NCBI GenBank assembly: GCA_947631865.1
Contig: CANRNF010000009.1
Location: 1-56,650 of the forward strand
Reading direction: 5' to 3'
DNA: 56,650 nucleotides
Source of the DNA: an uncultured Oscillospiraceae bacterium
GTDB lineage: Bacteria > Bacillota > Clostridia > Oscillospirales > Oscillospiraceae
A program made the translations under genes and the position numbers. This document shows positions 5,767 through 46,838 of this stretch, piece by piece. Under the pieces are notes generated by a model. That model saw only the letters and a list, made by a program, of their open reading frames with translations, searched no databases and was not told where the DNA came from. Each line of letters opens with the position of its first letter. The stretch's first letter is position 1.

Positions 5767-5788
5767 TTACCAGACACCTCAAATACCC

Positions 5789-8290: not shown

Positions 8291-8303
8291 TCGTCTTTCC
8301 TCC

Positions 8304-9933: not shown

Positions 9934-9944
9934 AACCCATTCCC

Positions 9945-11878: not shown

Positions 11879-11881
11879 TCT

Positions 11882-12112: not shown

Positions 12113-12113
12113 C

Positions 12114-13853: not shown

Positions 13854-13889
13854 ATTGTTTTCTCCTTATTCCCCAGGTTTGATCTTTAA

Positions 13890-14183: not shown

Positions 14184-14195
14184 CGTTCTATCCGT

Positions 14196-15023: not shown

Positions 15024-15118
15024 TATCTTCTTCCTTCAATCTATAATATATAAGAACGTTGCCTGAATGCAGGCATATATGCTATTACTTTTAGCCCGCA
15101 TACTGTTTCACGTCATAA

Positions 15119-16159: not shown

Positions 16160-16195
16160 ACAGCGCTTCCTCCTATTGTCTTCTCTGCCGACGCT

Positions 16196-17296: not shown

Positions 17297-18369
17297 TTTC
17301 TGGAGTTGATCCCCTTTTTATATAATTGCGCATATTCCCGGGCCATGACGACTTGGTTCAGTTCAGTCGCCACGCGTTCATGGGCGGCGTCCGTCATCCG
17401 ACCGTCGATACCGTTGTCCAGGAGATGCCGGATGACCCGGCAGTACTCCTCAAAGGTCCCGCAGATATAGCCCGTCTTCCCATCCGTGATGGCATCCACA
17501 TTCCCCGGTATCCGGCTCACGATACACAGCCGTTTGAAGTACATGGCCTCCATGATGGAGAACGCCAGCCCCTCGTACAGCGACGTCAGCATAAACACGG
17601 ACGAATCCATCATCCGTTTCACGGCCTGTTCTTTCGTCACCCATCCCGTGATCTCAATGTTCGGGCTGGCCAGTTCGCTCTCCAATTCGCCGCCGCCTAT
17701 CCAGGTGAACTTCACATCCGGGAACGCCGCAGCGATCCGATTGAACATGGCTGGGTCCTTCTGGGGGACTACACGGCCCAAGGTGCATATCCTTATTTCG
17801 TCCGGGCGCTTGTCCCAGTCCAAACCAAACCGGTCCAGCTCCGTCAGGTTCACGCCGTTGTTGATAAAGGTAGCCTGTCGGGACACCTTCTTCGCCGAGT
17901 CATACTCTCCCTCGCAGGAAGCCACCGTGATGCTGGGCCGGCAGCCCAGCATCTTCTCTAACACGTAGTACATCTTCCGCTTTGCGGCGCTGCACTGATA
18001 CATGAGGAAGCTGTAGCCCTGGGGCGAATAGAAGATCGGTGTCTTTTTGCCATCCAGCGCCAAGCGGCCGATGGCGCCCGCTTTGGTGGAATGCAGATGC
18101 ACCACGTCCGGCTGTATTTCATCGAATATACGTCGAACCTCTCGAATCGCCGCCAGATCCTCCCTGGGACTGATCTCCCGGGTCAGGTGCTCAGAGCGGA
18201 TGAACCTGACGCCGGACTTGAACAGCTTTTCCGGCTCCTTCGGCGATTCAGCCCGCTCGTTGTAGAGGATGTACTGCTCGAATTCGTCGCCCAGCCCATT
18301 GGCCAGCGTCTGCAGCGCACCCAGCACGCCGCCGGCAAACGCCTCGATGATATGCAAAACCTTTACCAT
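17293..18369 (-). CDS. Family 4 glycosyltransferase (copy 2 of a tandem pair)
   Basis: GT-B transferase, 358 residues. It has LHIIEAFAGGVLGALQTLANG at the start, DVVHLHSTKAGAIGRLA, the nucleotide-sugar region LGRVVPQKDPAMFNRIA and the ExxxxxE segment EGLAFSIMEAMYFKRLCIVS. It is clearly a paralogue of the gene immediately upstream, with matching C termini (TDAAHERVATELNQVVMAREY). The ATG at 18369 follows GGAGG. The pair probably add successive or related sugars. Confidence 0.93.
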   Translation of the reverse strand: MVKVLHIIEAFAGGVLGALQTLANGLGDEFEQYILYNERAESPKEPEKLFKSGVRFIRSEHLTREISPREDLAAIREVRRIFDEIQPDVVHLHSTKAGAIGRLALDGKKTPIFYSPQGYSFLMYQCSAAKRKMYYVLEKMLGCRPSITVASCEGEYDSAKKVSRQATFINNGVNLTELDRFGLDWDKRPDEIRICTLGRVVPQKDPAMFNRIAAAFPDVKFTWIGGGELESELASPNIEITGWVTKEQAVKRMMDSSVFMLTSLYEGLAFSIMEAMYFKRLCIVSRIPGNVDAITDGKTGYICGTFEEYCRVIRHLLDNGIDGRMTDAAHERVATELNQVVMAREYAQLYKKGINSRK

Positions 18370-18450
18370 CTCTACGCCGCCTCCTTTTCAGAGACAGCGC
18401 AGAGCGCCGGGATTGTTACAACATATATAACAGGGGAACTTCCCCCGTTT

Positions 18451-19542
18451 TCAGTTAGGAGTTGTACCCCCCCCCATGGTTTTCATAGCCTTCTTGTACA
18501 GCTCGCCATATTTCCGTACCATGACGGTCTGGTTCAATTCTGTCGCCACTCGCTCATGGGCCGCATCCGTCATCCGACTGTCTATCCCATCATCCATAAG
18601 GTGTTGGATCACTTCTACGTAGTCCTCCATTCTTTCGCATACATATCCCGTCCTGCGGTTCTCTATCACGTCCACATTCCCAGGTATCCGACTGACGATG
18701 CACAGCCGCCTCAGGTACATCGCCTCCAGCAGTGAAAGTGACAGGCCCTCCCACCGTGATGGCAGCAAAAACACCGCCGACTCCGTGACCTTCCGCAGCG
18801 CTTCCTCTCTCGGCAGCCACCCTGTCACCTCTATATTGGGGCTGGTAAGGACCTCCCGCAGCTCACCGTCCCCTATCCAGGTGAACTTCACGTCCGGGAA
18901 TGCCTCTGCAATCTCGTTGAACCGCTCAGGGTCCTTTTGCCGGGATATCCGCGCCAGCGTGCAGACGTTCACCCCGTCGGATCTCGCTGCAATATCGGGT
19001 ACAAGCGCGTCTACCTCTTGCGCATTGATGCCATTACTGACATAGGTGATGTCCTTCGTTACCCGCTTGCCCTGTTCACACTCGCCCTTGCCGCAGGCGA
19101 CGGTGGTGCATCTGCGGTATCCGCATACTTTCTCAAAAAGAAAGTACATCCGCCGCTTCATCTCCCCACAGCCGTCCATCAGAAAGCTATAGCCGTGTGG
19201 CGTGTAGAATAGAGGCAGCTTCTTCCCGTTTATTGCCCACCGGCCCAGAGCACCTGCCTTGCTGGAATGGAGATGCACTATATCCGGCCGGACCTCTTTC
19301 ACAACGCGTCGTATCTCGAAAAACGCCGCGATATCTTCTCCCGGCCTCAATTCACGGGACAAGTTCTCAGACCGAATCAGCCTTGTTCCCGGCCGAAAGA
19401 GCTTTTCCGGTGCGTCCGGCGTGTTATCCCGACGGGCATACAGTATAATGTGCTCGTCTTGCTCGTCCGAGCCGTTGATAAGCGCCTGCAGAAACGTGAC
19501 CACGCCCCCGCCGAATGCCTCTACGATATGTAATACCCTCAT
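18451..19542 (-). CDS. Family 4 glycosyltransferase (copy 1 of a tandem pair), G9 run at its end
   Basis: GT-B transferase of 363 residues, a paralogue of the next gene (LHIVEAFGGGVVTFLQALING, DIVHLHSSKAGALGRWA, LARISRQKDPERFNEIA, EGLSLSLLEAMYLRRLCIVS). ATG 19542 is chosen because it aligns with the paralogue's start; an in-frame codon at 19578 would overlap galE. The last codons contain nine G (18467-18475) and give the tail MGGGTTPN. With eight G the frame would read on for about 30 codons and stop two bases before the start of the paralogue. Confidence 0.92.
   Translation of the reverse strand: MRVLHIVEAFGGGVVTFLQALINGSDEQDEHIILYARRDNTPDAPEKLFRPGTRLIRSENLSRELRPGEDIAAFFEIRRVVKEVRPDIVHLHSSKAGALGRWAINGKKLPLFYTPHGYSFLMDGCGEMKRRMYFLFEKVCGYRRCTTVACGKGECEQGKRVTKDITYVSNGINAQEVDALVPDIAARSDGVNVCTLARISRQKDPERFNEIAEAFPDVKFTWIGDGELREVLTSPNIEVTGWLPREEALRKVTESAVFLLPSRWEGLSLSLLEAMYLRRLCIVSRIPGNVDVIENRRTGYVCERMEDYVEVIQHLMDDGIDSRMTDAAHERVATELNQTVMVRKYGELYKKAMKTMGGGTTPN
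18467..18475 (-). repeat. G9 homopolymer at the 3' end of a glycosyltransferase gene
   Basis: Nine G in the coding strand. The stop used changes with the number of G: nine give the short tail seen, ten stop almost at once, eight extend translation to the next gene's start region. Confidence 0.9.
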
Positions 19543-19547
19543 CCCTG

Positions 19548-20522
19548 TTAAAACTCTCTCTGCTCGTGCCAGGTCCATGCATGTTTCACGATGGTTTCTA
19601 TATCTCCATACATGGGCTCCCAGCCCAGGACGCGCTTCGCCTTCTCGCTGCTGCCTACCAGGATCGCCGGGTCTCCCGGCCGCCGCTCAGACAGCACTAC
19701 CGGGATATCTCTCTCCGTCACCCGCTTCGCCGCCTCTATCAGCTCCAGCACGCTCGTCCCCTTCGTGTTCCCAAGGTTCAGAAACTGGCTCTCCTTCCCC
19801 GCCTCCAGGTGCCGCAGCGCCAGCAGGTGTGCCGCCGCCAGGTCGCTCACATGTATGTAGTCCCGGATGCAGCTCCCGTCCCGCGTCGGATAGTCCGTAC
19901 CGAACACCTTCACGTTGGGCCGCTTTCCCGACGCCGCGTCCAATATCAGCGGGATGATGTGCGTCTCCGGGTCGTGGGCTTCCCCTATCTCTCCCTCCGG
20001 GTCCGCTCCCGCCGCGTTGAAGTACCGCAGCACCACGTACTTCAGCCCATAGGCTCTCTCGTAGTCCTTGAATATCCGCTCCACCGCGTACTTGGTGAAG
20101 CCATAGGGATTGATGGGGTTCTGAGGCATGTCCTCCGTGATGGGCGTCTTCTCCGGCTCCCCGTAGGTAGCGCAGCTGGACGAGAAGATGATCTTATCGC
20201 AGCCAAATTTGCGCATCACCTTCAGCAGGTTCAGCGTACAGCCGATGTTGTTGTAGTAGTACTTCTCCGGCTCCGCCACCGACTCCCCCACATAGGCATA
20301 GGCCGCGAAGTGGAACACCGCCTCGATGGGATACCTCTCGAACACCGCCTCGATCTGGCCGATGTTCTTCAAGTCCCCCTCGATGAGCGTTCCCCACTTC
20401 ACCGCCTCCCGGTGACCGTATATGAGATTGTCGAACACCACCGTCTCATAGCCCTCATGGGCCAGGAGCTTGTTGATGTGGGAACCGATGTATCCGGCTC
20501 CGCCTGTCACCAAAATAGCCAC
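19548..20522 (-). CDS. galE: UDP-glucose 4-epimerase
   Basis: NAD-dependent epimerase supplying UDP-galactose for the galactose transferases and for Glf. It is a 324-residue SDR enzyme: VTGGAGYIGSHINKLL (NAD loop), IFSSSCATYGEP (Ser), YGFTKYAVERI (YxxxK), FNAAGADPEGEIGE and the C-terminal GWEPMYGDIETIVKHAWTW, all specific to GalE. The GTG at 20522 is the only start giving the full NAD loop. It ends 5 bases before the following glycosyltransferase start. Confidence 0.96.
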   Translation of the reverse strand: MAILVTGGAGYIGSHINKLLAHEGYETVVFDNLIYGHREAVKWGTLIEGDLKNIGQIEAVFERYPIEAVFHFAAYAYVGESVAEPEKYYYNNIGCTLNLLKVMRKFGCDKIIFSSSCATYGEPEKTPITEDMPQNPINPYGFTKYAVERIFKDYERAYGLKYVVLRYFNAAGADPEGEIGEAHDPETHIIPLILDAASGKRPNVKVFGTDYPTRDGSCIRDYIHVSDLAAAHLLALRHLEAGKESQFLNLGNTKGTSVLELIEAAKRVTERDIPVVLSERRPGDPAILVGSSEKAKRVLGWEPMYGDIETIVKHAWTWHEQREF

Positions 20523-20545
20523 GTTTCTTACTCAGTTCCCCTTCT

Positions 20546-21052
20546 TTACTCTCCGTTCATACCCAGAACAGCGCCAAAGGTCTTGAAGATGATCTTCAAA
20601 TCTGTGCCTATGCTTCTCTCCCGTATGTATTGCAGGTCCATCTCCACCCACTCGTCAAAACTGCACAGATTTCGGTCCTTCCGCACCTGCCAGTAGCAGG
20701 TCAGCCCCGGCGTCACGCTCAGCCTCTGCCGCTGGTAATCGCTGTACTGCGCTACCTCCCGCGGCACCGGCGGCCGGGGTCCCACGATGCTCATGTCTCC
20801 CCGAAGCACGTTCCAAAGCTGGGGCAGCTCATCTATGCTCGTCTTACGGATGAACTTTCCCATCCGCGTGATACGCGGGTCGTCCTTGATCTTGAATACC
20901 GGCCCATCCATCTCATTCTGGCCCATCAGTTCATCCAGGCGCTCCTCAGCATCCACTACCATGGACCGAAACTTATAAAACCGGAATTCCTTCCCATCCT
21001 TGCCCACCCTCGTCTGCGTGAAGATGGGCGCTCCCTTCGGGTCATCCAGCAC
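20546..21052 (-). CDS. Second initiating sugar transferase, N terminus out of frame with any start
   Basis: Polyprenyl-phosphate sugar-1-phosphate transferase domain: TQTRVGKDGKEFRFYKFRSM, DDPRITRMGKFIRKTSIDELPQLWNVLRGDMSIVGPRP and LSVTPGLTCYWQVRKD. The GTG at 21052 is the first possible start, yet the frame is open further upstream and encodes the missing membrane helix and lead-in (YLFIKRAFDIAAS, then GLIVLSPLFLVVSILIV). No ATG, GTG or TTG exists between the G8 run at 21196-21203 and GTG 21052, nor between that run and the TAA above it. One extra G would join it in frame to the preceding sugar transferase. The intact domain can thus be made only by slippage or in another phase state. Confidence 0.88.
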   Translation of the reverse strand: MLDDPKGAPIFTQTRVGKDGKEFRFYKFRSMVVDAEERLDELMGQNEMDGPVFKIKDDPRITRMGKFIRKTSIDELPQLWNVLRGDMSIVGPRPPVPREVAQYSDYQRQRLSVTPGLTCYWQVRKDRNLCSFDEWVEMDLQYIRERSIGTDLKIIFKTFGAVLGMNGE

Positions 21053-21186
21053 GATGAGAATAGAAACGACAAGAAACAGGGGCGATAATACAATGAGTCC
21101 GGCTGCCGACGCGGCGATATCGAACGCACGCTTTATAAACAGATACGACCATCCGTGCCGGTTCCACGAACTGTATACACTTCTTC

Positions 21187-21909
21187 CTAGTAAGTCCCCC
21201 CCCTGTGGACTACTACAGATATCGTTTTAAAGAGGATCTTTATATCCAGCTTTAGACACTGGTTTTCCACATAGTACAGCTCCAACTTCTGCCGCTCCCC
21301 GGTCTCATAGGTGCTGTCGTTCCGCCCATGGGTCTGCCAGTAGCCTGTGATGCCCGGCTTCACAGACAGAAGTGTCCGCTGTTCTTCCGCTCTGTAATAC
21401 TTTCCCAGTTCCTCCCGCAGCACCGGCCGCGGGCCCACAAGAGACATATCACCTTTTAAAATGTTTAATAGCTGCGGCAACTCATCCAGGCTCGTCCGAC
21501 GCAGCACCGCCCCAAAGCAATGCTCTCCGTCTCCAGGCTTCTTGTAGCCGATGAGCCGCGGGTCGTCACGCAGTTTGAACTCCCGTTTGTATTCCTCCAA
21601 CTGCTCCGACGTCAGCGTATCTTCCAGAGCGTCCGCCCCTCGCCGCATGGTCCGGAACTTAAAGACAGATATCTCTTTCCCATTCAGACCAATGCGCTTA
21701 TGGGCATAAAAAGGGATGCCTGGGTCTCTGACCATGATCATCAACGCGATGACCGCCATGGGAACGAGGCATATCGCCGTCATTAACGCCGAGGCCACGA
21801 TATCGAACACACGCTTTATGAACTTGTATGCGCGGCTGGTGTTGCCGGTGACCTCCGCGACCTTTGTCGGAGCGTCCGCCACCGCCGTCGTTCTGTTCTC
21901 AGCGTCCAA
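21187..21909 (-). CDS. Initiating sugar transferase (undecaprenyl-phosphate sugar-1-phosphate transferase)
   Basis: Starts the repeat unit by moving a sugar-1-phosphate to undecaprenyl phosphate at the inner membrane. It is 240 residues: one helix-hairpin (FIKRVFDIVASALMTAICLVPMAV), YAHKRIGLNGKEISVFKFRTMRRGAD, a DDPR motif, LRRTSLDELPQLLNILKGDMSLVGPRP and the KPGITGYWQTHGRND segment. The TTG at 21909 follows GGGGGAGAG. The end, VVVHRGGTY, is typical of the family, so this phase looks normal; the tail is encoded across the G8 run. Confidence 0.94.
   Translation of the reverse strand: MDAENRTTAVADAPTKVAEVTGNTSRAYKFIKRVFDIVASALMTAICLVPMAVIALMIMVRDPGIPFYAHKRIGLNGKEISVFKFRTMRRGADALEDTLTSEQLEEYKREFKLRDDPRLIGYKKPGDGEHCFGAVLRRTSLDELPQLLNILKGDMSLVGPRPVLREELGKYYRAEEQRTLLSVKPGITGYWQTHGRNDSTYETGERQKLELYYVENQCLKLDIKILFKTISVVVHRGGTY
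21196..21203 (-). repeat. G8 homopolymer between two sugar-transferase frames
   Basis: Eight G in the last codons of the first sugar transferase. A ninth G, or a -1 ribosomal or polymerase slip on this run, puts translation into the frame that encodes the whole second sugar transferase. Confidence 0.9.
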
Positions 21910-21926
21910 GCTCGCTCTCCCCCAAC

Positions 21927-22868
21927 TCAGGCCCTTTCCATGAGCCCTCTGTAGTACTCTATCGTCTTCGCCAGGCCCTCCCGCAGAGGCACCTTCGGCT
22001 CCCAGCCCAGCAGTGCCTTCGCCTTCGTGATATCCGGCCGCCGCTGCTTCGGGTCGTCTTTCGGAAGCTCCTTGTGCACCAGCTTCGACCCGCTTTTCGT
22101 CTGCTGCAGCACTTCCTCCGCCAGCTCCAACATCGTGAACTCACCAGGGTTTCCCAGATTCACCGGGCCCGTGATATCCTCTGCCGAGTTCATCATCCGG
22201 TAGATGCCCTCGATCAGGTCGTCCACGTAGCAGAAGCTCCGCGTCTGCTTCCCGTCGCCGTACACCGTCAGGTCCTCGCCCCGCAGCGCCTGGTTCACGA
22301 AGTTGCTGATCACACGCCCGTCCTTGGGGTCCATCTTCGGGCCGTATGTATTGAAGATGCGGATCACCTTGATCTTCACGCCGTACTCCCGGTGGTAGTC
22401 GAAGCACAGCGTCTCCGCCGCACGCTTCCCCTCGTCGTAGCAGCTGCGTATCCCGTCCGGATTCACATTGCCCCAGTACGTCTCCGGCTGGGGGTGCACC
22501 TGCGCGTCCCCGTATACCTCCGACGTGGAGAACTGCAAAACCGTGGCGTCGTTCTTTCGCGCTAACTCCAGCATGTTCAGCATCCCGAACACGCTGGTCT
22601 TCAGCGTGTGCACCGGGTCCGCCTGGTACGCCGGGGGACTTGCCGGGCACGCCGCGTTATAGATCTGGTCCACTTCCAGCTCTATCGGCTCCACGATGTC
22701 GTGCCGGATGAACTGGAAGTTGGGCTTATCCATCAACTCCCGGATGTTCTCCGTCCGTCCGGTCTGCAGGTTATCCAGGCAGTACACATAGTTCGCCGGG
22801 TCCTTCAAAAGCCTCTCGCACAGGTTGGAACCTAAGAAGCCTGCGCCGCCGGTCACCAATATCCGCAT
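21927..22868 (-). CDS. UDP-glucuronate decarboxylase (UDP-xylose synthase)
   Basis: SDR enzyme (313 residues) that oxidises and decarboxylates UDP-glucuronate to UDP-xylose. It has [17 protein letters not shown], the UXS-specific stretch [23 protein letters not shown] (read in parts), [20 protein letters not shown] (YxxxK) and [10 protein letters not shown]. It follows ugd by 12 bases, giving a two-step route from UDP-glucose to UDP-xylose. GAAGG precedes the ATG. Confidence 0.95.
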
Positions 22869-22880
22869 CCTTCTCTACCC

Positions 22881-24101
22881 TCAATCCCGATGGTACTGGT
22901 CCCGCGTGTACAGCTTGTCCGCCGCCGGCGCCAAAACATCGTCATACCGGTTCGCGATGATCACGTCGCTCTCCGCCATGAACGCCGACAAGTCGTTGTT
23001 CACGCTGTATCCGTTGAACTCGCTCTGGTCCTTCAGCGTGGGCTCATAGACCACGATCTTCACGCCCTGGTCCGCCAGGTACTTCATCACGCCCTGGATG
23101 GCGCTCTCACGGAAGTTGTCCGAGTTGGACTTCATCGTCAGCCGGTACACGCCCACCACGGGCGCGTTCTTGCCACTCAGACGCTTCATCACCTGGGAGG
23201 CGATGTGCTCCTTGCGCACATCATTGGTCTCCACCACCGCACGGATCAGCCGCTGGGGCACGTCCGCGCAGTTGGCTAGAAGCTGCTTTGTGTCCTTCGG
23301 GAAGCAGTACCCGCCGTAGCCGAAACTCGGGTTGTTGTATCCGTCCCCGATGCGGTAGTCCAGGCACACCCCGTCGATGATCTCACGGGCGTTCAGACCG
23401 TTCAGCTCCGCGTAGGTGTCCAGCTCGTTGAAGAAGCTCACGCGCATGGCCAGATAGGTATTGGCGAACAGCTTCACCGCCTCCGCCTCTGTGAAGCCCA
23501 TCACCAGCACGGGCACATCCTCCCGTAGGGCGGCTTCCTTCAGAAGCTGACCAAACGCCTCCGCCGCCTTTACCAGCCGATCGTCCTCCATATCCGTCCC
23601 CACGATGATCCGCCGGGGGTAGAGATTGTCGTACAGCGCCCGGCTCTCCCGCAGAAATTCCGGGCTGAATAGGATATTCTTACATCCCGTCTTCTCCCGC
23701 AGGCTCTTGGTATATCCCACGGGGATGGTGCTCTTGATGACGATGATGGCGTCCGGGGCGTATTCCATCACCTGGGCCACCACATCCTCCACCGCGGAGG
23801 TATCGAAATAGTGCTTGTGAGGGTCATAGTTGGTGGGCGTCGCCACGATCACCAGGTCCGCGCCCGTATAGGCTTCCTTCCCGTCTGTGGTCACTGTGAG
23901 GTGCAGGTCCTTCGTCGCCAGGAATTCCTCGATCTCCGGGTCACGGATGGGGGACCGCTTTTCCTTGTTCAGCATGTCTGCTTTCGCCTGATGCTGACAC
24001 GTGGCCACCACCTCGTGCTCCCGCGACAGCAGCACCGCCATGCTCAGTCCTACATACCCGATCCCCGCTACCGCGATCTTGCCGATAGTTTCATTTTTCA
24101 T
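22881..24101 (-). CDS. ugd: UDP-glucose 6-dehydrogenase
   Basis: Makes UDP-glucuronate with NAD, the first committed step of the locus. It is 406 residues long: IAVAGIGYVGLSMAVLLSREHEV (NAD loop), VIVATPTNYD, IVIKSTIPVGYT, FSPEFLRES, the catalytic-Cys region FGYGGYCFPKDTKQL and a C-terminal UDP-binding domain. It is the first gene after the promoter at 24.37 kb, with a leader of about 250 bases. Members of this length resemble the E. coli-type Ugd. Confidence 0.95.
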   Translation of the reverse strand: MKNETIGKIAVAGIGYVGLSMAVLLSREHEVVATCQHQAKADMLNKEKRSPIRDPEIEEFLATKDLHLTVTTDGKEAYTGADLVIVATPTNYDPHKHYFDTSAVEDVVAQVMEYAPDAIIVIKSTIPVGYTKSLREKTGCKNILFSPEFLRESRALYDNLYPRRIIVGTDMEDDRLVKAAEAFGQLLKEAALREDVPVLVMGFTEAEAVKLFANTYLAMRVSFFNELDTYAELNGLNAREIIDGVCLDYRIGDGYNNPSFGYGGYCFPKDTKQLLANCADVPQRLIRAVVETNDVRKEHIASQVMKRLSGKNAPVVGVYRLTMKSNSDNFRESAIQGVMKYLADQGVKIVVYEPTLKDQSEFNGYSVNNDLSAFMAESDVIIANRYDDVLAPAADKLYTRDQYHRD

Positions 24102-38370: not shown

Positions 38371-38399
38371 TTGACGGCCGCCCGTAATTTCGTTAGTAT
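38371..38399 (+). promoter_or_regulatory. Promoter of the Cys-rich peptide operon
   Basis: TTGACG (38371-38376), 17-base spacer, TAGTAT (38394-38399), 34 bases before the GTG of the first peptide gene. It is the only promoter-like sequence seen before 40.7 kb on this strand. Confidence 0.7.
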
Positions 38400-38433: not shown

Positions 38434-38658
38434 GTGAACGACGAAGAGATCCTGGACGAAAAGACTTTGGAGGGCGTCGCCGGCGGGGCGATGAACGACG
38501 CCATGCTGTACGCTGAGTTTATGGCGTACTTCATCACGCACAACTGTCCCGGCTGCGCGCTGGCCGACACCGACTGTCCCTATGCCCTCGACCCGAGCCT
38601 GGTCTATGAGGAAGTGAAGCACGACAAAAAAACGCCCTGCCCCCATCGGCCGAAATAA
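38434..38658 (+). CDS. Double-glycine-leader Cys-rich peptide 1
   Basis: 74 residues: an acidic leader ending LEGVAGG (Leu -7, Val -4, Gly-Gly -2/-1), the classic C39-peptidase cleavage pattern, then a core with four Cys in the order C-x2-C-x6-C...C (NCPGCALADTDCPY; late PCPHRP). Predicted to be a secreted bacteriocin, pheromone or modified peptide precursor. GTG start behind GAGGGGG. First gene of an eight-peptide operon; no match to a named bacteriocin is recognised. Confidence 0.8.
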   Translation: MNDEEILDEKTLEGVAGGAMNDAMLYAEFMAYFITHNCPGCALADTDCPYALDPSLVYEEVKHDKKTPCPHRPK

Positions 38659-38674
38659 AAAGGAGGAGCACCCC

Positions 38675-38902
38675 GTGAGCGAGGAGAAAAAGGCGGACGG
38701 GAAGACGCTGAGCGACGAGACCGTGAAGGCCGTATCCGGCGGTCTGGAAGAGCATGACGATCCATTTTTTACATTTTTCCATGCCAACTGCCTCTGCTGC
38801 CGTTTGACCGCGGACTGTGTCTATGGAAGTTTTGAACATGCCTTTGAATTGCTGGGCAGCAGGCCGGACGCGGTGTGTTTCGGGAAATATCTTGACCCTT
38901 AA
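38675..38902 (+). CDS. Double-glycine-leader Cys-rich peptide 2
   Basis: 75 residues. The leader ends VKAVSGG (Val -7, Val -4), followed by an acidic and aromatic core, EEHDDPFFTFFHANC, and five Cys (CLCC-x5-C-V-Y; one late Cys). It shares the C-x2-C-x5/6-C-x-Y pattern with peptides 1 and 3. The GTG start has a strong AAGGAGG site 16 bases after the previous stop. Function unknown; paralogue by leader and Cys spacing rather than overall identity. Confidence 0.8.
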   Translation: MSEEKKADGKTLSDETVKAVSGGLEEHDDPFFTFFHANCLCCRLTADCVYGSFEHAFELLGSRPDAVCFGKYLDP

Positions 38903-38928
38903 ATATCAAAAATCAGGAGGAACACACC

Positions 38929-39165
38929 ATGAACGAGGAAATGAAGCTGGACGAGAAGACCCTGGAAAAGATCACCGGCGGGATATCCGCCGATGATCTC
39001 CAGGCGGCCGAGATCTTCCGCGTGCCCTTTATCGACGCCTATTGCAGCCGCTGCTCGAGATGCAACACGGAGTGTTCCTATCCCAGCGGCGACCCCTTCG
39101 ATACGACGGCGATGTATTATGTGTTCAAGGACAAGCCGGGCTGCCCCTGGATCGTCCCCAAATGA
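38929..39165 (+). CDS. Double-glycine-leader Cys-rich peptide 3
   Basis: 78 residues. The leader MNEEMKLDEKTLEKITGG is nearly the same as that of peptide 1 in its last twelve residues (DEKTLE then hydrophobic -4, GG). The core has five Cys: C-x2-C-x2-C-x3-C-S-Y, then GCPW near the end. AGGAGG precedes the ATG. The shared ending CP or C-P-like with peptides 1 and 8 suggests a common fold or crosslink pattern. Confidence 0.8.
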   Translation: MNEEMKLDEKTLEKITGGISADDLQAAEIFRVPFIDAYCSRCSRCNTECSYPSGDPFDTTAMYYVFKDKPGCPWIVPK

Positions 39166-39190
39166 CAACGCGGACAAGGAGGAAAACGCC

Positions 39191-39379
39191 ATGAGAAAAT
39201 GTGTGCGCTGCGGCGCGGAGATGGAAGAGGGCTTCACATTCACCGGCTCGGGCGGCAACGTGATACGGCGCAAGGGCCTGGGCGGAAAGGCCGTCTACCC
39301 CAAGGCGGCGGTGTGCCCCGTCTGCGGCGAGGTGAGCGTCTACGTGGACGAGGAGCAGCTGGAAAAGCTGAAAAAGTGA
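39191..39379 (+). CDS. Small zinc-ribbon protein without leader
   Basis: 62 residues with two CxxC pairs (KCVRCGAE near the start, VCPVCGEV near 42), i.e. a compact zinc ribbon, and a C-terminal acidic helix (VDEEQLEKLKK). Unlike its neighbours it has no double-glycine leader, so it should stay in the cell. It lies inside the peptide operon with its own AAGGAGG site and may be the ancestor or cytoplasmic partner of the zinc-ribbon-like peptides that follow. Confidence 0.75.
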   Translation: MRKCVRCGAEMEEGFTFTGSGGNVIRRKGLGGKAVYPKAAVCPVCGEVSVYVDEEQLEKLKK

Positions 39380-39389
39380 GGTATGGATC

Positions 39390-39626
39390 GTGATGACTGA
39401 CGAGAAGAAAACCCCGCGGGGGGGGGTAACCCCTGAACTGGAGGATGACGTCCTGGACGTAGTGACCGGCGGCGCCGCCGATGGGACGTTTCTGTATCGC
39501 TGCCCCAATTGCGGCTATGAGTATCGTGGCTTTCCGACGGCGACGATCGAAGGTTCTAACGAGCCGTGGTGCCCGTGCTGCGCCGTTATTGATCACTGCA
39601 ATACGAGAATGATTAAGGTCGGCTAG
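39390..39626 (+). CDS. Double-glycine-leader peptide 4, zinc-ribbon-like core, G9 run in leader
   Basis: 77-78 residues (GTG 39390 or ATG 39393). The leader ends VLDVVTGG; the core carries RCPNCGYEYRG and WCPCC, two CxxC-type pairs typical of a zinc ribbon, plus a late Cys. Codons 10-13 fall in a run of nine G (39418-39426): only a multiple-of-three change keeps the frame, so one slip would abolish the peptide. This copy is in the on state. Confidence 0.8.
   Translation: MMTDEKKTPRGGVTPELEDDVLDVVTGGAADGTFLYRCPNCGYEYRGFPTATIEGSNEPWCPCCAVIDHCNTRMIKVG
39418..39426 (+). repeat. G9 homopolymer in the leader of peptide 4
   Basis: Nine consecutive G about 25 bases after the start codon. Eight or ten G would shift the frame before the double-glycine site. 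Confidence 0.9.
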
Positions 39627-39652
39627 AGCCTATAAAACAGGAAGGAAACGCC

Positions 39653-39856
39653 ATGAGCGAAGAAAAAACAGTCACCGACCAGGAGATGGAAGAGGTCGCC
39701 GGCGGCATCAAACTCCCGCCCCTGACGGCTTTGTACCGCTGCTACCAGTGCGGCGCGGAGCAGCGCCTTGAGGTGACTACGCGTCTATATTATTGCAGTA
39801 AATGCCGTTTGCCAATGGGCGTCGTGTCCGGCTCTGAGACGCGAGGTCAGGAATAA
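39653..39856 (+). CDS. Double-glycine-leader peptide 5, zinc-ribbon-like core
   Basis: 67 residues. The leader ends MEEVAGG; the core begins IKLPPLTALYRC and has YRCYQCGAE and YYCSKCRLP, two CxxC knuckles about 18 residues apart, the spacing of a zinc ribbon. GGAAGG precedes the ATG. Combination of an export-type leader with a metal-binding core is unusual. Confidence 0.8.
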   Translation: MSEEKTVTDQEMEEVAGGIKLPPLTALYRCYQCGAEQRLEVTTRLYYCSKCRLPMGVVSGSETRGQE

Positions 39857-39877
39857 AACAGAAAAGGAGAAACGACC

Positions 39878-40099
39878 ATGTTCGAGATCGACGATATGGA
39901 ACTGGACAATGTGACCGGCGGGGCCGTCGGGCCCGCGGACCCCTCGCCCACCGCCACCGGCGGCGTCACGTACAAGTGCCCCAACTGCGGCGCGGTGATC
40001 TACGCCAGCACCCGGGATATGTCCGTGACCTGCCCCAATAGGAAGTGCATGAGCACCTTCAATGTCAGGAAGGGAAGGCTCATCGCCTGCAGCCTGTGA
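39878..40099 (+). CDS. Double-glycine-leader peptide 6, zinc-ribbon-like core
   Basis: 73 residues with a short leader ending LDNVTGG, a Pro/Thr/Gly-rich spacer, then YKCPNCGAVIYAS and TCPNRKCMSTF, a zinc-ribbon-like pair set close to that of peptides 4 and 5, and a last Cys near the end. AAAAGGAG precedes the ATG. Followed by a 39-base gap to the next peptide gene. Confidence 0.8.
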   Translation: MFEIDDMELDNVTGGAVGPADPSPTATGGVTYKCPNCGAVIYASTRDMSVTCPNRKCMSTFNVRKGRLIACSL

Positions 40100-40138
40100 G
40101 ACCAAATAAACTAACATAAAAAAGAAAGGAAAAAGATC

Positions 40139-40366
40139 ATGAACGACAACTTCACGAGCAAGGAACTGGACATGAACGCGCTGGAGGGCGTGAACGGCGG
40201 TGTGAAGGTGAACTCCGACGGGGTGTTCCCCCTCATCCTGCAGCACTGCGTTGGCTGCGGAGACCGCAGCGTTGAATGCTGGGCGTATCTCGAGGAGCTG
40301 AAACCGAAGTTCGCGGAGGGCGGCGAGGTGGAAGTCGCGTGCCCCAAGGGTAAGGCCATTCTGTAA
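40139..40366 (+). CDS. Double-glycine-leader Cys-rich peptide 7
   Basis: 75 residues. The leader ends LEGVNGG; the core has four Cys in C-x2-C-x6-C...C order (HCVGCGDRSVECW; late ACPKG), the same spacing as peptide 1, so it returns to the first core class after the three zinc-ribbon-like ones. GAAAGGA precedes the ATG. Confidence 0.8.
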   Translation: MNDNFTSKELDMNALEGVNGGVKVNSDGVFPLILQHCVGCGDRSVECWAYLEELKPKFAEGGEVEVACPKGKAIL

Positions 40367-40415
40367 AAAGAGCTGCGGGGCAGAACAGACAGATCAACGG
40401 ATAAGAGGTGGAAAA

Positions 40416-40646
40416 ATGGGCGAACAGATCCAGCGTGAGGAAGAGCTGCGGGCCGTCAGCGGCGGCGCGGGCGGGCAGAGCTTCGCCGCGCTGGCAGAGG
40501 ACTTCGTCTGGACCAACCGGTGCGACACCTGCCCCGACAGGCACCTCCGGCTCCATTACGGGATGTGCACGGAGGAATATAACCGGCTGCTGATGGAATG
40601 GTCCGCATGCGGTCCGGTGGACACCCGCTGCAAGCGCCGGCCGTGA
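40416..40646 (+). CDS. Double-glycine-leader Cys-rich peptide 8
   Basis: 76 residues. The short leader ends LRAVSGG, with a second GG three residues on. The core has five Cys (RCDTCPDRH, GMC, SACG, TRCKRRP) and a basic end. AAGAGGTGG precedes the ATG. It is the last peptide gene; two GC-rich hairpins separate it from the kinase gene on the same strand. Confidence 0.8.
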   Translation: MGEQIQREEELRAVSGGAGGQSFAALAEDFVWTNRCDTCPDRHLRLHYGMCTEEYNRLLMEWSACGPVDTRCKRRP

Positions 40647-40711: not shown

Positions 40712-42613
40712 ATGAAAGACGATCCTAAACGGCGGTATTTGCCCGGCGCGGCCATCCTGGTGGCGGTGGCGGCGCTGATATTCGTCGTGTTCTCCCTTCT
40801 CAGCGTGACGGAAAAAGAGGACCTGGCCCTGGGCGACTCGGAGGAATGGCGCTTCGGCTGGCGCTATGAGGTGCTGACGGACGACGGCGTGCGCCCCTAT
40901 GAGCCCGTGTATGAGGACGGGTTCTTTCTCCAGCTGCCGGAGGATACCCGGGCCGTGCGCATCACTCGGACCATGACGGAGGATATCCCCCAGGCGGAGC
41001 TGGAGTGGATGAGTTATCAGGACGGCGTGGAGGTGGTCCTGGACGGGTTCCTGCTCTACACGGACTTCCCGGACCTTGTCCGGGACGGGGACGGCTTCGT
41101 CCACCCCGGCGAGGAGCAGTGGGCCCGCGTCGGGCGGCAGCATCAGGACTGGACGGTACGCTCCACGCGCATGAGCCTGCCCGCGGACTATCTGGGCAAA
41201 GAACTGGCCGTCACCACCTACTTCCCGGAGGGAGAGGTGGGAACGCCGGAGTATCCCTATCTGGGAAACGATGACTCAGGGCTGATCGCGACCTCCGTCG
41301 TGTCCACGGTGCGGAATAACACCGCTATGACGGTCTATGCGCTTTTGGCGGTGCTGATGGCGGCGGTGTTCCTGGTAGACTCTTATAACCGCAACGGGGA
41401 CGGCCGGACGCTGCTTTTATGCCTTTACTTCCTGATGCTGTTTTTGATGGAGGCCTACAGTTCCACCGTCGGGTATTACAGCATCCTGACAGAGCGGCTG
41501 GACCTGCGGTTCGTGAGCGTGGTGTATATGGCGCCGCTGTACCTCTATCTGGTGCTGCGGATGAAGAGCCGGTGGAAGTGGCCTCTGTGCGTCATGGTGG
41601 CCGCATGGGCGGGCTTTGAGAGCGTGCGGGAGCTGCGCCTGCCCGAGGGGATCGCAGTGCTCGTCGGGCCGGAGACGCTGGCGGTGCTCGTCGTGGTGAC
41701 GGCGGCACTGGCCGTGGACGGCCTGCGGTGGAAAGAGCGCACGAGGCAGGAGAAAAAGCGCATGCTGACCTATGGGCTCATCGCCGCCGGATTTACGGTG
41801 GTCTACATGCTGGACCGGATCCGGGCCTGGGATGGCGACGCCGCCGGCTATTTCCGGGATGAACTGTGGCTGAGCCTGCTGGGTGGCAACTGCTGGTCCT
41901 GGGTGAGCATGTTCAACGCCGTCATCTCCTGGATGGCCGTGCTCGTGGTGATCTCGGAGGCCGTCCGCCGGACGTTGGCGACCCGCCGGACCATGGATGT
42001 GCTCCGGGAGCGGGAGCGCCAGACCATGGCCGGGTATGAGCGGCTGCTGGCCTCGGAGGACGACACCCGCGCATTGCACCACGAGATGCGCCACCACATG
42101 CTGGCCCTGTCCGCCATCCTGGCCGACGGGGACGTGGGGCGCGCCCGGCGGTATGTGGACGCCGTGGCCGACGACCTGGCCCATGTGCCCGGCGGGCGCT
42201 ACTGCCAGAATATCCTGGTGGACATGATCGCCGGGAGCTTTCTGGACCAGGCGGCCGCCCAGGGCATCCAGGTGGAGCACCACCTGAACGTGCCCCAGGA
42301 GCTGAACATCGCCGACGAGGACCTGAGCGTGTTTTTGAGCAACATGCTCCAAAACGCCCTGGAGGCCTGCCGCCGGATGCGCCCGGATCAGCGGCGGTAC
42401 ATATGGGTGGATATGCACCTGCGGGGGAATTTCCTCTGCGTCCAGTGCGTCAACAGCCGCCCGGATGAAGAGGAGCCCCAGGAGCGGGAAGGCCACGGTT
42501 ACGGCCTCGCGGCCATGCGCGCCGTGGCGGAAAAATACAACAGCGCCCTGCTCTTGGAGCGGACGCCGAATGGATTTTCTGTGACCAGCGACTTTTGTCT
42601 GGAGCGCCTCTAG
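40712..42613 (+). CDS. GHKL sensor histidine kinase with 7TMR-DISM-like outer domain
   Basis: 633 residues. A signal-anchor helix (about 10-30) and an outer beta-rich domain (about 35-200; W-x-FGW and WTVRSTRMSLP strands) are followed by about seven membrane helices (205-410) and a cytoplasmic kinase: ALHHEMRHHMLAL (phospho-His about 457), an N box FLSNMLQNALEACRR and a G-rich GHGYGLAAM. This is the HPK10/AgrC-BlpH kinase core with a 7TMR-DISM sensor rather than the AgrC membrane domain. ATG 40712 is set by GGGAGG. It lies 65 bases after peptide 8 on the same strand, so it may share the transcript and sense the peptides. Confidence 0.9.
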   Translation: MKDDPKRRYLPGAAILVAVAALIFVVFSLLSVTEKEDLALGDSEEWRFGWRYEVLTDDGVRPYEPVYEDGFFLQLPEDTRAVRITRTMTEDIPQAELEWMSYQDGVEVVLDGFLLYTDFPDLVRDGDGFVHPGEEQWARVGRQHQDWTVRSTRMSLPADYLGKELAVTTYFPEGEVGTPEYPYLGNDDSGLIATSVVSTVRNNTAMTVYALLAVLMAAVFLVDSYNRNGDGRTLLLCLYFLMLFLMEAYSSTVGYYSILTERLDLRFVSVVYMAPLYLYLVLRMKSRWKWPLCVMVAAWAGFESVRELRLPEGIAVLVGPETLAVLVVVTAALAVDGLRWKERTRQEKKRMLTYGLIAAGFTVVYMLDRIRAWDGDAAGYFRDELWLSLLGGNCWSWVSMFNAVISWMAVLVVISEAVRRTLATRRTMDVLRERERQTMAGYERLLASEDDTRALHHEMRHHMLALSAILADGDVGRARRYVDAVADDLAHVPGGRYCQNILVDMIAGSFLDQAAAQGIQVEHHLNVPQELNIADEDLSVFLSNMLQNALEACRRMRPDQRRYIWVDMHLRGNFLCVQCVNSRPDEEEPQEREGHGYGLAAMRAVAEKYNSALLLERTPNGFSVTSDFCLERL

Positions 42614-43329
42614 ACAAAGGGATGCCGCCGCCTGTCGAAGGCGGCCAGTCCCATTTGGATGCCGGCGTAGTCGGCCCGGCCCATGGGCACCATGTCCCCG
42701 GAGGTCAGGCGCAGCCCGTCCTTGCCCAGCACGGCGATGTGCTCCAGATTCACAAGATAGCTGCGGTGCACCCGGACGAACTGCCCGACGGGCAGCTGCG
42801 GCTCCAGGTCCTGGAGCGTGCCCCGCCAGGAGCTCTCGCTGCCGTCCCGGCGGCGGAGCCTCACCACGTGGCTGTATATCTCGAAATAGAGGACGTCCGC
42901 CACGGGAAGGCGCACCATCCCCTGGGGCGTGGTCAGGGACAGCACGCGGGGCGCGTGCCGCTCCAGAAACAGGTCCAGCACGTCCTCCAGCTGGGGCTGG
43001 CGCAGGGGCTTCAGCAGATAGTGCAGCGGCCGGACGTCATAGCCCGCCACGGCATATCGCTCGCTGCTGGACATGAGCACCAGGTCCATGTCCCAGTCCC
43101 GCTCCCGCAGGAGCTTGGCGAAGCGGATGCCCTTCTCCTCCCCGAAGAGGATGTCCTGGAACAGCAGGTCGCACCGCTCCCCCCGCTCCAGCGCGGACAG
43201 CATCTTGGCAGGCTCGGGATAGTAGGTGACATGGCAGGCCGCCTCCCGCTTCCCGAAGGACTGGGACAGACTGGACGAAAGTTCCGACGCGAACTCGCCG
43301 TCGTCATCGCAGATGATGACCTCATACAT
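42610..43329 (-). CDS. LytTR-type response regulator
   Basis: 239 residues: receiver domain (1-120; ICDDDGEFA, phospho-Asp59 in LLFQDILFGEEKG, Lys about 107 in YLLKPL) and a LytTR DNA-binding domain (about 138-235; VLYFEIYSHVVRLR, VRVHRSYLVNLEHI). AgrA, ComE and BlpR share this plan. It converges on the kinase gene, with the two 3' ends overlapping by 4 bases; partner kinases of this class are usually in the same operon. It probably acts at the tandem repeat before the peptide operon. Confidence 0.93.
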   Translation of the reverse strand: MYEVIICDDDGEFASELSSSLSQSFGKREAACHVTYYPEPAKMLSALERGERCDLLFQDILFGEEKGIRFAKLLRERDWDMDLVLMSSSERYAVAGYDVRPLHYLLKPLRQPQLEDVLDLFLERHAPRVLSLTTPQGMVRLPVADVLYFEIYSHVVRLRRRDGSESSWRGTLQDLEPQLPVGQFVRVHRSYLVNLEHIAVLGKDGLRLTSGDMVPMGRADYAGIQMGLAAFDRRRHPFV

Positions 43330-43430: not shown

Positions 43431-45572
43431 ATGACGAACAGCGATATGCAAAAACAAAACAGGAAGCGCAGGCCCATCCGCCGCCAGGTGCAGCGGATGG
43501 TTCTCTTGCTGTGCGTGGCGGCTCTGGTGGTCACGGGCGTGCTGTGGGCCGGGAGCCTGTTCGCCCTGCGGGACACGGTCCAGCGGGACAGCCAGGGCCT
43601 GGGCGAGAGCGCGGCCGCCGCCGGCGGCGAGGCGCTGCTGGACCAGATGGAGCAGAACCTCTACAAGGGCGTGCAGAGCGAGGCCGCCGTGGTCGACGAG
43701 AAGCTGGAGCGGTACGCCGCCTTCGTGGAAGACTTCGCCTTCTACGCCCACCGGCTCTATGAGGAGCCGGAGATGTACGTGCCCAAGGAAGTGCTGCCCC
43801 CGGACGCGGCCAGCCAGTATACCTACACCATGCAGCTGGTGTGGCGGGACGAGGATACAGACCGGGCGGCCGTGGAAGAGGAAGTGGGCCTGCTGGCCAA
43901 CCTGGTCCACATATGGCAGCCGGTGATGACCGGCGACGCGGAGAACATCGCCTCCATCTATCTCTGCACTGAGAGCGGATTCATGCTCAATTACGACGAG
44001 CGCTCCGACCTGACGCCGGATTATTTCGGCTATGAGCAGTCCGTGTGGTACCAGTTGGCGCGGGACGCCGGGGACGTGATCTTCACCGTGCCCTACATGG
44101 ACACCTTCGGCCGGGGGCTCATGCTCACCTGCGCCGCGCCCGTCTATGACGGGGACGGCCTCTTCGCCGGCGTGGTGTGCATGGACATGATGGTGGAGGA
44201 CCTGACCCGCTCGGTGCTGGACATCGACTTCGGGGAGGGCTCCTACGGCTTTTTGGTGGACGGGGCCGGATATATCATCGCCTCTCCCCAGATGGAGTAC
44301 GACGGCACCTTCGAGAACGTCCGGGACCCGGAATGCCCCGCCTATGAGGCCGCTAAGAGCATCATGAGCGGCGAGGCGGGCGTCGCGCCCACCTCCGGCG
44401 GGCTCTATTACGCCTACGCCCCCATCGACGCGGCCAGCTGGACCCTGGCCATCCATATGCCGGCGGACATGGTGACGGCCCCGGCGGAGAGCATCCGCAC
44501 GGATATCACCGCCCGTACCGGCGCCACCGCCGAGACCCTGGACAGCAGCATCGCGCGGACGGGGCTCATATCCCTCGCGGTGTTCATCGTTATCATCGGG
44601 GCGGTGGTCGGCATGAGCGGCGCCTTCTCCCGGCGGCTCACCGGTCCCCTGCTGGAGCTGCGGGAGGATGTGGAGCACATCAGCGCCGGTGACCTGACCC
44701 ACCAGGCCGCCGTGCGGCAAAACGACGAGATAGGCGACCTGGCGGAGGCCTTCAACGGCATGGCCGGGTCTTTGGACAAATACATCCACGACCTGACCGC
44801 CATGACGGCGGAGAAGGAGCGCATCGGCGCGGAGCTGGACATCGCCACCCACATCCAGGCCTCCATGCTGCCCTGCATCTTCCCCCCCTTCCCGGACAGG
44901 AAGGAATTCGATATTTTTGCCACCATGAACCCGGCCAAGGAAGTGGGCGGCGACTTCTACGACTTCTTCATGGTGGACGACACCCACTTGGCCATCGTCG
45001 TGGCGGACGTGTCCGGCAAGGGCGTGCCCGCGGCCCTGTTCATGGTCATCGGAAAGACCCTCATCAAGGACCACACCACCCCGGGCCGCGACCTGGGTGA
45101 GGTGTTCATGGAGGTCAACAAGCTCCTGTGCGAGGGCAACGGCGAGGAGCTGTTCATCACCGCCTTCGAGGGCGTGCTGGACCTGGAGACCGGCCAGTTC
45201 AACTTTGTGAACGCCGGGCATGAGATGCCCTTCATCCGCCGGAAGGGGAAGTATACGCCGGAGAAGATACGGGCCGGATTCGTCCTGGCAGGCATGGATA
45301 TGACCCGCTACCGCATGGGTTCCCTGCAGATGGAGCCTGGGGACGCGATCTTCCAGTACACGGATGGCGTGACCGAGGCGACGAACGGCCAAAACGAGCT
45401 GTACGGCATGGAGCGGCTGGAGGCGGTGCTGAACAGGAACGCGGATGCCTCCCCCGATAAGCTGCTGCCGGCGGTGAAGGCGGACATCGACGCCTTCGTG
45501 GGCAGCGCGCCCCAATTCGACGACATCACCATGCTGTGCTTGGAATATAAAGAACCTATGGAAAAGCCATAA
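43431..45572 (+). CDS. Cache-HAMP-SpoIIE (PP2C) serine phosphatase, RsbU-like
   Basis: 713 residues. Helix 1 (about 22-45), a double-Cache outer sensor (about 50-370; YGFLVDGAGYIIASP, YAPIDAASWTLAIHMP), helix 2 (about 382-402), HAMP (LTGPLLELREDVEHISAGDL) and a PP2C/SpoIIE phosphatase domain (about 460-710; ELDIATHIQASMLP, EVGGDFYDFF, VVADVSGKGVPAALFM, TDGVTEATN). Such proteins dephosphorylate STAS anti-anti-sigma proteins; a STAS domain is encoded next. ATG 43431 follows AAAGGTG. Confidence 0.93.
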   Translation: MTNSDMQKQNRKRRPIRRQVQRMVLLLCVAALVVTGVLWAGSLFALRDTVQRDSQGLGESAAAAGGEALLDQMEQNLYKGVQSEAAVVDEKLERYAAFVEDFAFYAHRLYEEPEMYVPKEVLPPDAASQYTYTMQLVWRDEDTDRAAVEEEVGLLANLVHIWQPVMTGDAENIASIYLCTESGFMLNYDERSDLTPDYFGYEQSVWYQLARDAGDVIFTVPYMDTFGRGLMLTCAAPVYDGDGLFAGVVCMDMMVEDLTRSVLDIDFGEGSYGFLVDGAGYIIASPQMEYDGTFENVRDPECPAYEAAKSIMSGEAGVAPTSGGLYYAYAPIDAASWTLAIHMPADMVTAPAESIRTDITARTGATAETLDSSIARTGLISLAVFIVIIGAVVGMSGAFSRRLTGPLLELREDVEHISAGDLTHQAAVRQNDEIGDLAEAFNGMAGSLDKYIHDLTAMTAEKERIGAELDIATHIQASMLPCIFPPFPDRKEFDIFATMNPAKEVGGDFYDFFMVDDTHLAIVVADVSGKGVPAALFMVIGKTLIKDHTTPGRDLGEVFMEVNKLLCEGNGEELFITAFEGVLDLETGQFNFVNAGHEMPFIRRKGKYTPEKIRAGFVLAGMDMTRYRMGSLQMEPGDAIFQYTDGVTEATNGQNELYGMERLEAVLNRNADASPDKLLPAVKADIDAFVGSAPQFDDITMLCLEYKEPMEKP

Positions 45573-45599: not shown

Positions 45600-46838
45600 A
45601 TGGATGAACTGAGAGCGAGGACCAACCCCGCGTTCAACGCGGCCAAGTCCACCCTGGTGTATCTCATGAAGGCCGGGGACGAGGACGCTGCCATGATGGC
45701 CAAAGAGCTTCACGTCGAACCGGACGAGGTGTTCAGGGAGGGACAGAAAAGCGCCCTGAGCATTGGCATGATGGCACAGGTAGACGCCTTCCACGAGATC
45801 ATGGACCAGTTTCTGGCCGCCGGGCCGGAGAAGACCATCGTGGACCTGGGCTGCGGCTACACCCCCCGTGCCCTGTGGGAGGGGCTTGGAAACAAGCGCT
45901 TCATCGGCTGCGACCTGCCCATCGTCATCGACGATATGGCCCCGCTGGTCACGAAGCTTCTGGCCGGTAAACGCCGGCCAGCCCCGGCGGTATACCGGGC
46001 GGCGGATTTTACAAGCTACGCCTCCCTGCGCTCCGCCCTGGACGGGGTAGCGGGCCCGGTGTGCCTCACCAGCGAGGGGACGCTGGCCTACCTGACCCAG
46101 TCGGAGGTGCGGCAGCTGTGCGCCAACGTACGGCGGGTGCTGAGAGAGTTCGGCGGCCGCTGGCTCACCCCGGACCCGGAGGCGGGCAAGCGTACCATAG
46201 GCACCTTGAGAGCCGTGATGGGCGAGGCTGCCTTCAAAAATATGATGAGCGCCTTCAATACCCTGTCCTCCCAGTCGGACGTGACGGTGGGGAACAACGA
46301 TCTTGTGATGCGCCTCGGGGAGGCAGACGGATTTGAGAAGGCCACGGCCCTTCTGGCTGAAAACGGCCTGAAGGCGAGGCAGCTTCCCATGGACGAACAT
46401 ATGCCCGAGCTGAAGGTATTCACCCATCTCAATGACCAGCAGCGCGAGAATATGAAAAGGCTGTACGCGGGCCTGACCGTCTGGGAGATCACCCCGGACC
46501 CGGACTGGAAGGAGCCCGCCCCGGAAAACAGCAGCGCCTATGCCCTGCGCACGGACGTGGACGGTCCGGAAGTGGTCTTTACCCTTCGCGGCCGGGTGGA
46601 CTCCCTCACCGCGCCGGAATTCCTGGCCGCCTTTGAGAAGGCCGCGGGGGCCCATGTCCTTAAGGACGCCAAGGTAAACATGTCCCATCTGGAGTACATA
46701 TCCTCGGCGGGCCTGCGGGTGCTGCTCATCATGACGAAGCGCCTGGGCCCGGGCCATGTGACCGTCACCGGCGCCAGCGATCTCATCCGGTCCATCTTCG
46801 AGCAAACGGGATACAGTGATATCCTGACGATCAAGTAA
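45600..46838 (+). CDS. Fusion: LCM-type methyltransferase + STAS domain
   Basis: 412 residues. The first 290 resemble leucine-carboxyl-type class I methyltransferases (TIVDLGCGYTPRALWE as SAM loop, FIGCDLP acidic residue, LTSEGTLAYLTQSEV). The last 105 are a STAS anti-sigma-antagonist domain (VVFTLRGRVDSLTAPEFLAAF; the phosphorylatable-Ser segment EYISSAGLRVLLIM). It starts 27 bases after the PP2C gene behind CGGAGG, so the phosphatase is its likely partner. Methyltransferase-STAS fusions are rare in what I know; no anti-sigma kinase is nearby. Confidence 0.85.
   Translation: MDELRARTNPAFNAAKSTLVYLMKAGDEDAAMMAKELHVEPDEVFREGQKSALSIGMMAQVDAFHEIMDQFLAAGPEKTIVDLGCGYTPRALWEGLGNKRFIGCDLPIVIDDMAPLVTKLLAGKRRPAPAVYRAADFTSYASLRSALDGVAGPVCLTSEGTLAYLTQSEVRQLCANVRRVLREFGGRWLTPDPEAGKRTIGTLRAVMGEAAFKNMMSAFNTLSSQSDVTVGNNDLVMRLGEADGFEKATALLAENGLKARQLPMDEHMPELKVFTHLNDQQRENMKRLYAGLTVWEITPDPDWKEPAPENSSAYALRTDVDGPEVVFTLRGRVDSLTAPEFLAAFEKAAGAHVLKDAKVNMSHLEYISSAGLRVLLIMTKRLGPGHVTVTGASDLIRSIFEQTGYSDILTIK

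Follow-up and report, generated by a model that had tools for sequence, protein, structure and literature searches.

Double-glycine-leader, cysteine-rich peptides of an uncultured Oscillospiraceae bacterium and their predicted LahT-type exporter

We studied an array of small genes located at positions 38434–40646 (+) of a 56,650-bp stretch of DNA from an uncultured Oscillospiraceae bacterium (contig CANRNF010000009.1), further referred to as the window. The array consists of nine consecutive genes, eight of which encode peptides with a double-glycine (GG) leader, whereas the product of the fourth one (p4) has no leader. We consider it fairly probable that a single C39 exporter takes the GG peptides as its substrates in trans and that they are secreted, probably as metal-binding mini-proteins. 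The export part of this reading, one LahT-type exporter serving the GG peptides in trans, is predicted with high confidence. The leaders, the size of the peptide family, the exporter, its specificity match with the leaders and the gene linkage in relatives are read directly from the sequences.

The array and its leaders

The cores of the GG peptides are of two kinds, class A (p1–p3, p8 and p9) and ribbon type (p5–p7). The array and the promoter-like match ahead of it comprise the following features.

38371–38399, +, σ70-like promoter match TTGACG-17-TAGTAT, 35 bp upstream of p1
38434–38658, +, p1, GG-leader peptide with a class A core; starts with GTG (with ATG in the sister species)
38675–38902, +, p2, GG-leader peptide with a class A core; starts with GTG
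38929–39165, +, p3, GG-leader peptide with a class A core; 8 of 60 genomes searched have relatives
39191–39379, +, p4, leaderless zinc-ribbon-like protein (Zn_Ribbon_1, 24.1 bits, cut-off 25)
39393–39626, +, p5, GG-leader peptide, ribbon-type core with six Cys
39653–39856, +, p6, GG-leader peptide, ribbon-type core; the sister-species array has no match
39878–40099, +, p7, GG-leader peptide, ribbon-type core; relatives precede exporter genes in genomes G001 and G021
40139–40366, +, p8, GG-leader peptide, class A core
40416–40646, +, p9, GG-leader peptide, class A core; Gln at −12; candidate kinase signal

A preliminary description of the region as an operon of eight GG-leader Cys-rich peptides was right about the eight leaders and has to be amended for the ninth, leaderless gene. 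The leaders are 15–27 aa long, net acidic and end in [LVM]xx[VI]xGG. The hydrophobic residue at −7, Val or Ile at −4 and the GG pair, all as described, occur in all eight leaders (these features were used in selection). Position −12 is hydrophobic in seven of the eight: Leu occupies it in five leaders, p6 has Val there, p7 Ile and p9 Gln. Each GG peptide contains four to six Cys, not four or five as first stated. Among 258 open reading frames (ORFs) of 45–130 aa in the window, nine match the leader pattern, and eight of these are the array genes.

Promoter-like matches in the region number four against 1.4 expected, and the match ahead of p1 is weak evidence alone; both its hexamers are retained in the sister species (G033, a contig of an uncultured Oscillospiraceae metagenome-assembled genome, isolate Lapin-001__bin25). 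The p4 protein resembles a cytosolic zinc ribbon, scoring just below the Pfam cut-off, and has relatives in G021, G026, G030 and G033.

Size of the family

The assembly containing the window (G000) comprises 3.02 Mb in 150 contigs and is 87% complete. Each of the profiles A3 and A4 matched it 57 times at E 0.1, the places being partly shared. We read 297,272 bases around profile matches and on contig C3, the stretches having been picked with leader-including profiles. A strict detector listed 56 GG-leader genes on 15 contigs in these bases (at most 55 separate genes, given one overlapping pair on C3, 29576–30007 and 29797–29985); 47 of them have at least three Cys and nine have none. Ten dinucleotide shuffles of the same bases gave 0, 0, 0, 0, 0, 0, 0, 1, 0 and 0 GG-leader genes, and four of the loci read (53 kb) held zero. 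The detector is incomplete, as a profile match on contig C10 (2.4e-6) is not listed by it. Hence an operon of eight genes understated the extent of the family: the window array is one among many in this genome. The loci read throughout the genus yield 186 distinct GG-peptide cores. Literature searches of openly accessible papers, judged from their listings, found no description of this peptide family.

The exporter and its specificity

A PCAT/C39 gene was looked for in the genome and found: G000 encodes one strong C39 domain, on contig C3. The locus contains a short HlyD-like protein, a TIGR03796 subunit (951.3 bits, cut-off 853.3) and a TIGR03797 subunit (731 bits, cut-off 709.4); behind them lie three GG genes with ribbon-like cores. 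The HlyD-like protein is below the TIGR03794 cut-off (42.9 vs 156.2 bits) and matches over the N-terminal 47 positions only. The earlier remark that no exporter or modifying enzyme lies beside the peptides holds within the window, while an exporter does exist elsewhere in the genome. A second C39 match in G000 was considered as an exporter and rejected: it belongs to a peptidase of the C39_2 type whose start is signal-like.

The C39 domain of the exporter is identical to LahT150 (PDB 6mpz) in 106 of 147 columns. According to the accessible text of PMC6363468, LahT requires Leu at −12, Leu at −7 and Val at −4 of the leader. Leu occupies position −12 in 50 of the 56 G000 leaders and in 164 of the 186 distinct cores of the genus loci; this position is not used by the detector, but given the way in which the stretches were picked the count is not fully independent. 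With one full C39 exporter in G000, the C39-type processing proposed in the preliminary description is well supported at the sequence level.

Exporter linkage in related genomes

GG genes adjoin exporter genes in ten of eleven exporter loci examined (G000, G001, G009, G013, G020, G021, G026, G030, G033 and G034); in the eleventh (G003) the single GG gene seen is ~7 kb away. The exporter loci of G016, G018 and G023 are outside these eleven. A class A gene (5.9e-8 to A3) and a p7 relative lie upstream of the exporter in G001, where the latter ends 23 bp before the HlyD-like gene; the gap in G021 is ~20 bp.

Among 35 genomes of the genus, class A was found in 13 (at E 1e-5), an exporter over the cut-off in 13, and both in 10. 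The one-sided Fisher test gives p 0.0003 for all 35 genomes, 0.0012 for the 19 genomes with completeness of at least 85% and 0.032 for the 13 with at least 90%, ignoring shared ancestry in each case. Three genomes have class A without an exporter over the cut-off. In G009 the second ATP-binding cassette subunit is broken by a contig end ahead of the array, and the array contig of G012 starts within a gene that adjoins the exporter elsewhere; unlike these two, G006 shows no trace of an exporter-linked break.

Core classes and metal binding

None of 27 class A members matches Pfam at E 0.01. Comparison with NCBIfam gave stray weak matches to four families (one in three members and three in one member each), and the best match among PDB sequences has E 0.17. 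Assignment of class A to a known family was rejected after these comparisons. The structure model of class A (predicted local distance difference test score 47.7) was set aside.

For a zinc-ribbon fold of p5–p7, which would place two CxxC knuckles on a β-ribbon, the profile and the model of p7 agree, the Foldseek E being above 0.001; no Pfam ribbon family is matched over its cut-off by p5–p7. LysW and other zinc ribbons are without a GG leader, and their likeness to p5–p7 is weak and at the fold level only. Nine of the 186 distinct cores have the CxxC..CxxH pattern, and because of such members metal is favoured over disulfides. The ribbon-class cores are likely to bind metal, as judged from profile and model, and metal binding by class A is possible, as judged by its Cys pattern. 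Of the redox or metal peptides suggested earlier, metal peptides are supported by fold for the ribbon class.

Distribution and evolution

Outside the genus, 391 genomes of the class gave a class A match at 1e-4 only in G000 itself, and the clear matches among 300 genomes of the family are three genus members; these searches scored the best 14–19 candidates per genome, so that rare members beyond the genus may have escaped them. The family genomes also gave a match in G333 (4.1e-6), with two internal stops, and partial matches. Within the searches made, full-length class A appears to be found only in this genus.

Leader-plus-ribbon genes are present in other genera (G169 and G333). Moreover, GG leaders precede LysM domains in one genome of another genus (4.6e-15 and 3.4e-14, both in G165) and a PepSY domain in a further one (6e-12, G345). 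It is possible that in this family the GG leader works as an export tag of general use. LysM or PepSY cores behind GG leaders were seen at three loci of other family genera (L065, L074 and L078, with L074 slightly below the PepSY cut-off). A related locus, L141, shows 43% identity over 44 residues and no GG leader by the detector.

The array regulators are kept in the sister species at 91–97% identity. The p5 sequence is 90% identical there over residues 5–77, and no usual start codon was found upstream of it; p6 has no match. That leader ends are conserved while cores differ, as described previously, is true of paralogues; between the two species, in contrast, the cores changed less than the leaders. 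For six peptide pairs the ratio of nonsynonymous to synonymous change (pN/pS) is 0.39 in the core (8 synonymous and 10 nonsynonymous changes) and 0.78 in the leader. The changes are few, but they give no indication that the cores evolved rapidly between the two genomes.

Neighbouring genes and p9 as a candidate signal

Downstream of the array the window contains the following genes.

40712–42613, +, GHKL histidine kinase, 633 aa (HATPase_c_5, 6.1e-10)
42610–43329, −, LytTR response regulator, 239 aa (LytTR, 8.5e-15; Response_reg, 8.7e-9)
43431–45572, +, dCache-HAMP-SpoIIE phosphatase, 713 aa (a 288-aa stretch is 89% identical to the exporter-locus SpoIIE)
45600–46838, +, LCM-type methyltransferase fused to STAS, 412 aa (LCM, 2.6e-6; STAS, 1.8e-9)

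The kinase has matches in 19 of the 35 genus genomes, and 19 kinase loci from 18 genomes were examined. In seven of them (G000, G009, G012, G020, G021, G033 and G034) a relative of p9 lies 37–71 bp upstream of the kinase and keeps the four Cys and a C-terminal Arg pair. This position suggests that p9 is a signal of the neighbouring kinase. Two observations keep this from being proof: the other 12 loci are without p9, and in G026 and G030 a p4 relative is found ahead of the kinase. The pheromone role proposed earlier for the peptides is plausible for p9 alone. LytTR boxes in the window number five against 4.2 expected, none being ahead of p1, and a search for an upstream motif common to the window array, G009 and G012 gave nothing convincing.

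The SpoIIE proteins of the window (43431–45572) and of the exporter locus (L003, 6861–8888) have different sensor parts, and their shared 288-aa stretch looks like the product of domain swapping or gene conversion. The exporter loci of G013 and G021 also contain SpoIIE homologues. LCM-STAS is found at four places in G000, three of which are within 5 kb of GG genes (contigs C9, C15 and C38; window 45600–46838, L142 7214–8434 and L146 976–2280; the C15 copy passes Pfam for STAS only); at the fourth (C87) no GG gene was seen within 10 kb. The pairing with GG genes also occurs in G009, G026 and G033.

Two MATE transporters carry a fused RsbW-like HATPase_c_2 domain, one near the exporter (L003, 3447–5195, below the HATPase_c_2 cut-off) and one near the C38 array (L146, 5377–7152, above it). 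By the C3 array (L034, 5800–7023) there are a Cys-free GG peptide, a weak Nif11-like GG gene and an ORF which, by eye, we take to resemble an extracytoplasmic function sigma factor; another LytTR/GHKL-like pair lies upstream. A D-Ala-D-Ala-ligase-like gene adjoins the C38 array (L146, 4401–10922), together with genes presumably, by eye, related to phosphonate synthesis. The region 4414–24101 of the window is presumably a cluster for surface polysaccharide, some of whose genes look, by eye, similar to those of sialic-acid-type sugar synthesis. A defence system was considered and rejected: the eight window proteins submitted had no PADLOC match, and the exporter matched mad3 and mad8 only.

Proposed mechanism and alternatives

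We infer the export itself, the metal binding, the regulation and the extracellular or envelope role as follows. The NHLP/LahT-type system on C3 would act in trans on the eight GG peptides of the array; its C39 domain would recognise the leader helix (−12, −7, −4 and GG) and cleave after GG, and the transporter would release mature proteins of 49–60 aa. Each core probably folds around four Cys ligands into a small metal-binding (most likely zinc) mini-protein, p5–p7 as ribbons, while p1–p3, p8 and p9 would be of a new type, C-x2-C...C...C; a tailoring enzyme would be unnecessary. The GHKL/LytTR pair and the SpoIIE and STAS genes most likely control expression, and p9 may signal to the kinase. 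A bolder extension, which we offer tentatively, is a genus-specific secretome in which one LahT-type exporter releases about fifty four-ligand metal mini-proteins of at least two fold classes, one of them new, induced by p9 as a pheromone of the neighbouring kinase and acting on neighbours or retaining metal extracellularly in the anaerobic gut.

The peptides might instead form a battery of unmodified class II-like bacteriocins, each directed against other competitors and induced by the two-component system, which we regard as rather unlikely. GG leaders, a C39 exporter and a GHKL/LytTR pair are indeed present, the paralogues are many and diverse with some turnover (p6 is unmatched in G033), and one member of the C15 array is over the Pfam ComC cut-off (20.9 vs 20.4). 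However, no bacteriocin family scores over its cut-off for the window peptides, the best values being 13.9 against 27.1 for Bacteriocin_IIc (p8), 12.7 against 15.7 for TIGR01847 (p3) and 12.7 against 21.5 for TIGR03949 (p6). Inspection of the array by eye, with no immunity profile search, recognised no immunity gene, the cores are conserved in the sister species, and zinc-ribbon patterns are seen among them. The secreted bacteriocins of the preliminary description have thus gained no direct support. Core conservation, the lack of a recognised immunity gene and the use of the leader by other folded domains of the family make us prefer extracellular or envelope mini-proteins to classical bacteriocins.

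If an enzyme encoded at another place in the genome modified the peptides in trans, they would be prochlorosin-like precursors of ribosomally synthesized and post-translationally modified peptides (RiPPs). LahT serves a lanthipeptide cluster with diverse precursors (accessible text of PMC6363468), the Nif11-like GG gene of the C3 array is in line with this although below the Pfam cut-off (16.8 vs 23.8), and the LCM-type methyltransferase is a candidate modifying enzyme. Still, the three SPASM genes of G000 are on contigs without arrays (C69, C59 and C8), and no known type of tailoring enzyme was found among the array neighbours tested (without a genome-wide search for LanM and YcaO). We consider RiPP precursors improbable.

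Intracellular zinc-finger-like proteins with merely leader-like N-termini are very improbable: zinc ribbons are mostly cytosolic and the leaderless p4 belongs to the same array, but 56 leaders were found against zero or one in shuffled sequence, 50 of the 56 have Leu at −12, and GG genes are linked to exporters.

Significance

The known cases of large GG-peptide families served by one C39 transporter are mainly RiPP precursors. As far as can be judged from sequence, the cargo in the present case looks like ready-folded metal mini-proteins, dozens of them in one gut Oscillospiraceae genome. If some GG peptides are secreted zinc-binding mini-proteins, as they appear to be, this would be unusual bacterial secretion; the GG leader would then serve this family generally as a tag by which small folded domains are exported, and bacteriocin mining would overlook or misname such proteins. 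The 186 distinct cores are a ready test set for the role of secreted zinc-finger-like proteins.

Comparison with known systems

The comparisons below refer to the accessible text of the papers cited. MAM of Faecalibacterium (PMC12184118) and EbfG of Synechococcus (PMC4997328) are small proteins other than bacteriocins that have GG leaders and a C39 exporter; the likeness seen concerns these traits, and no Cys-ligand cores are described for them in that text. Prochlorosins, with up to 83 GG precursors per genome, both scattered and in tandem, and diverse cores (PMC10783134), resemble the present family in all these respects; they have Nif11 leaders and LanM, whereas the cores here have fixed CxxC patterns and fall into few classes.

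The NHLP/Nif11 precursors are accompanied by the exporter trio TIGR03794/03796/03797 (PMC2887384). We likewise observe TIGR03796 and TIGR03797 over the cut-off, many GG paralogues per genome and one Nif11-like gene. On the other hand, the window leaders are short (15–27 aa) and match neither Nif11 nor nitrile-hydratase-like leaders, the HlyD-like protein is shortened and below the cut-off, and no enzyme of thiazole/oxazole-modified microcins or lanthipeptides was recognised nearby. The lah cluster of Lachnospiraceae C6A11 (PMC6363468) encodes lanthipeptides, unlike the cores with CxxC patterns described here, for which the loci read showed no LanM (no genome-wide search was made); the two systems are alike in the C39 domain (106 of 147 columns identical) and in the leader positions −12, −7, −4 and GG.
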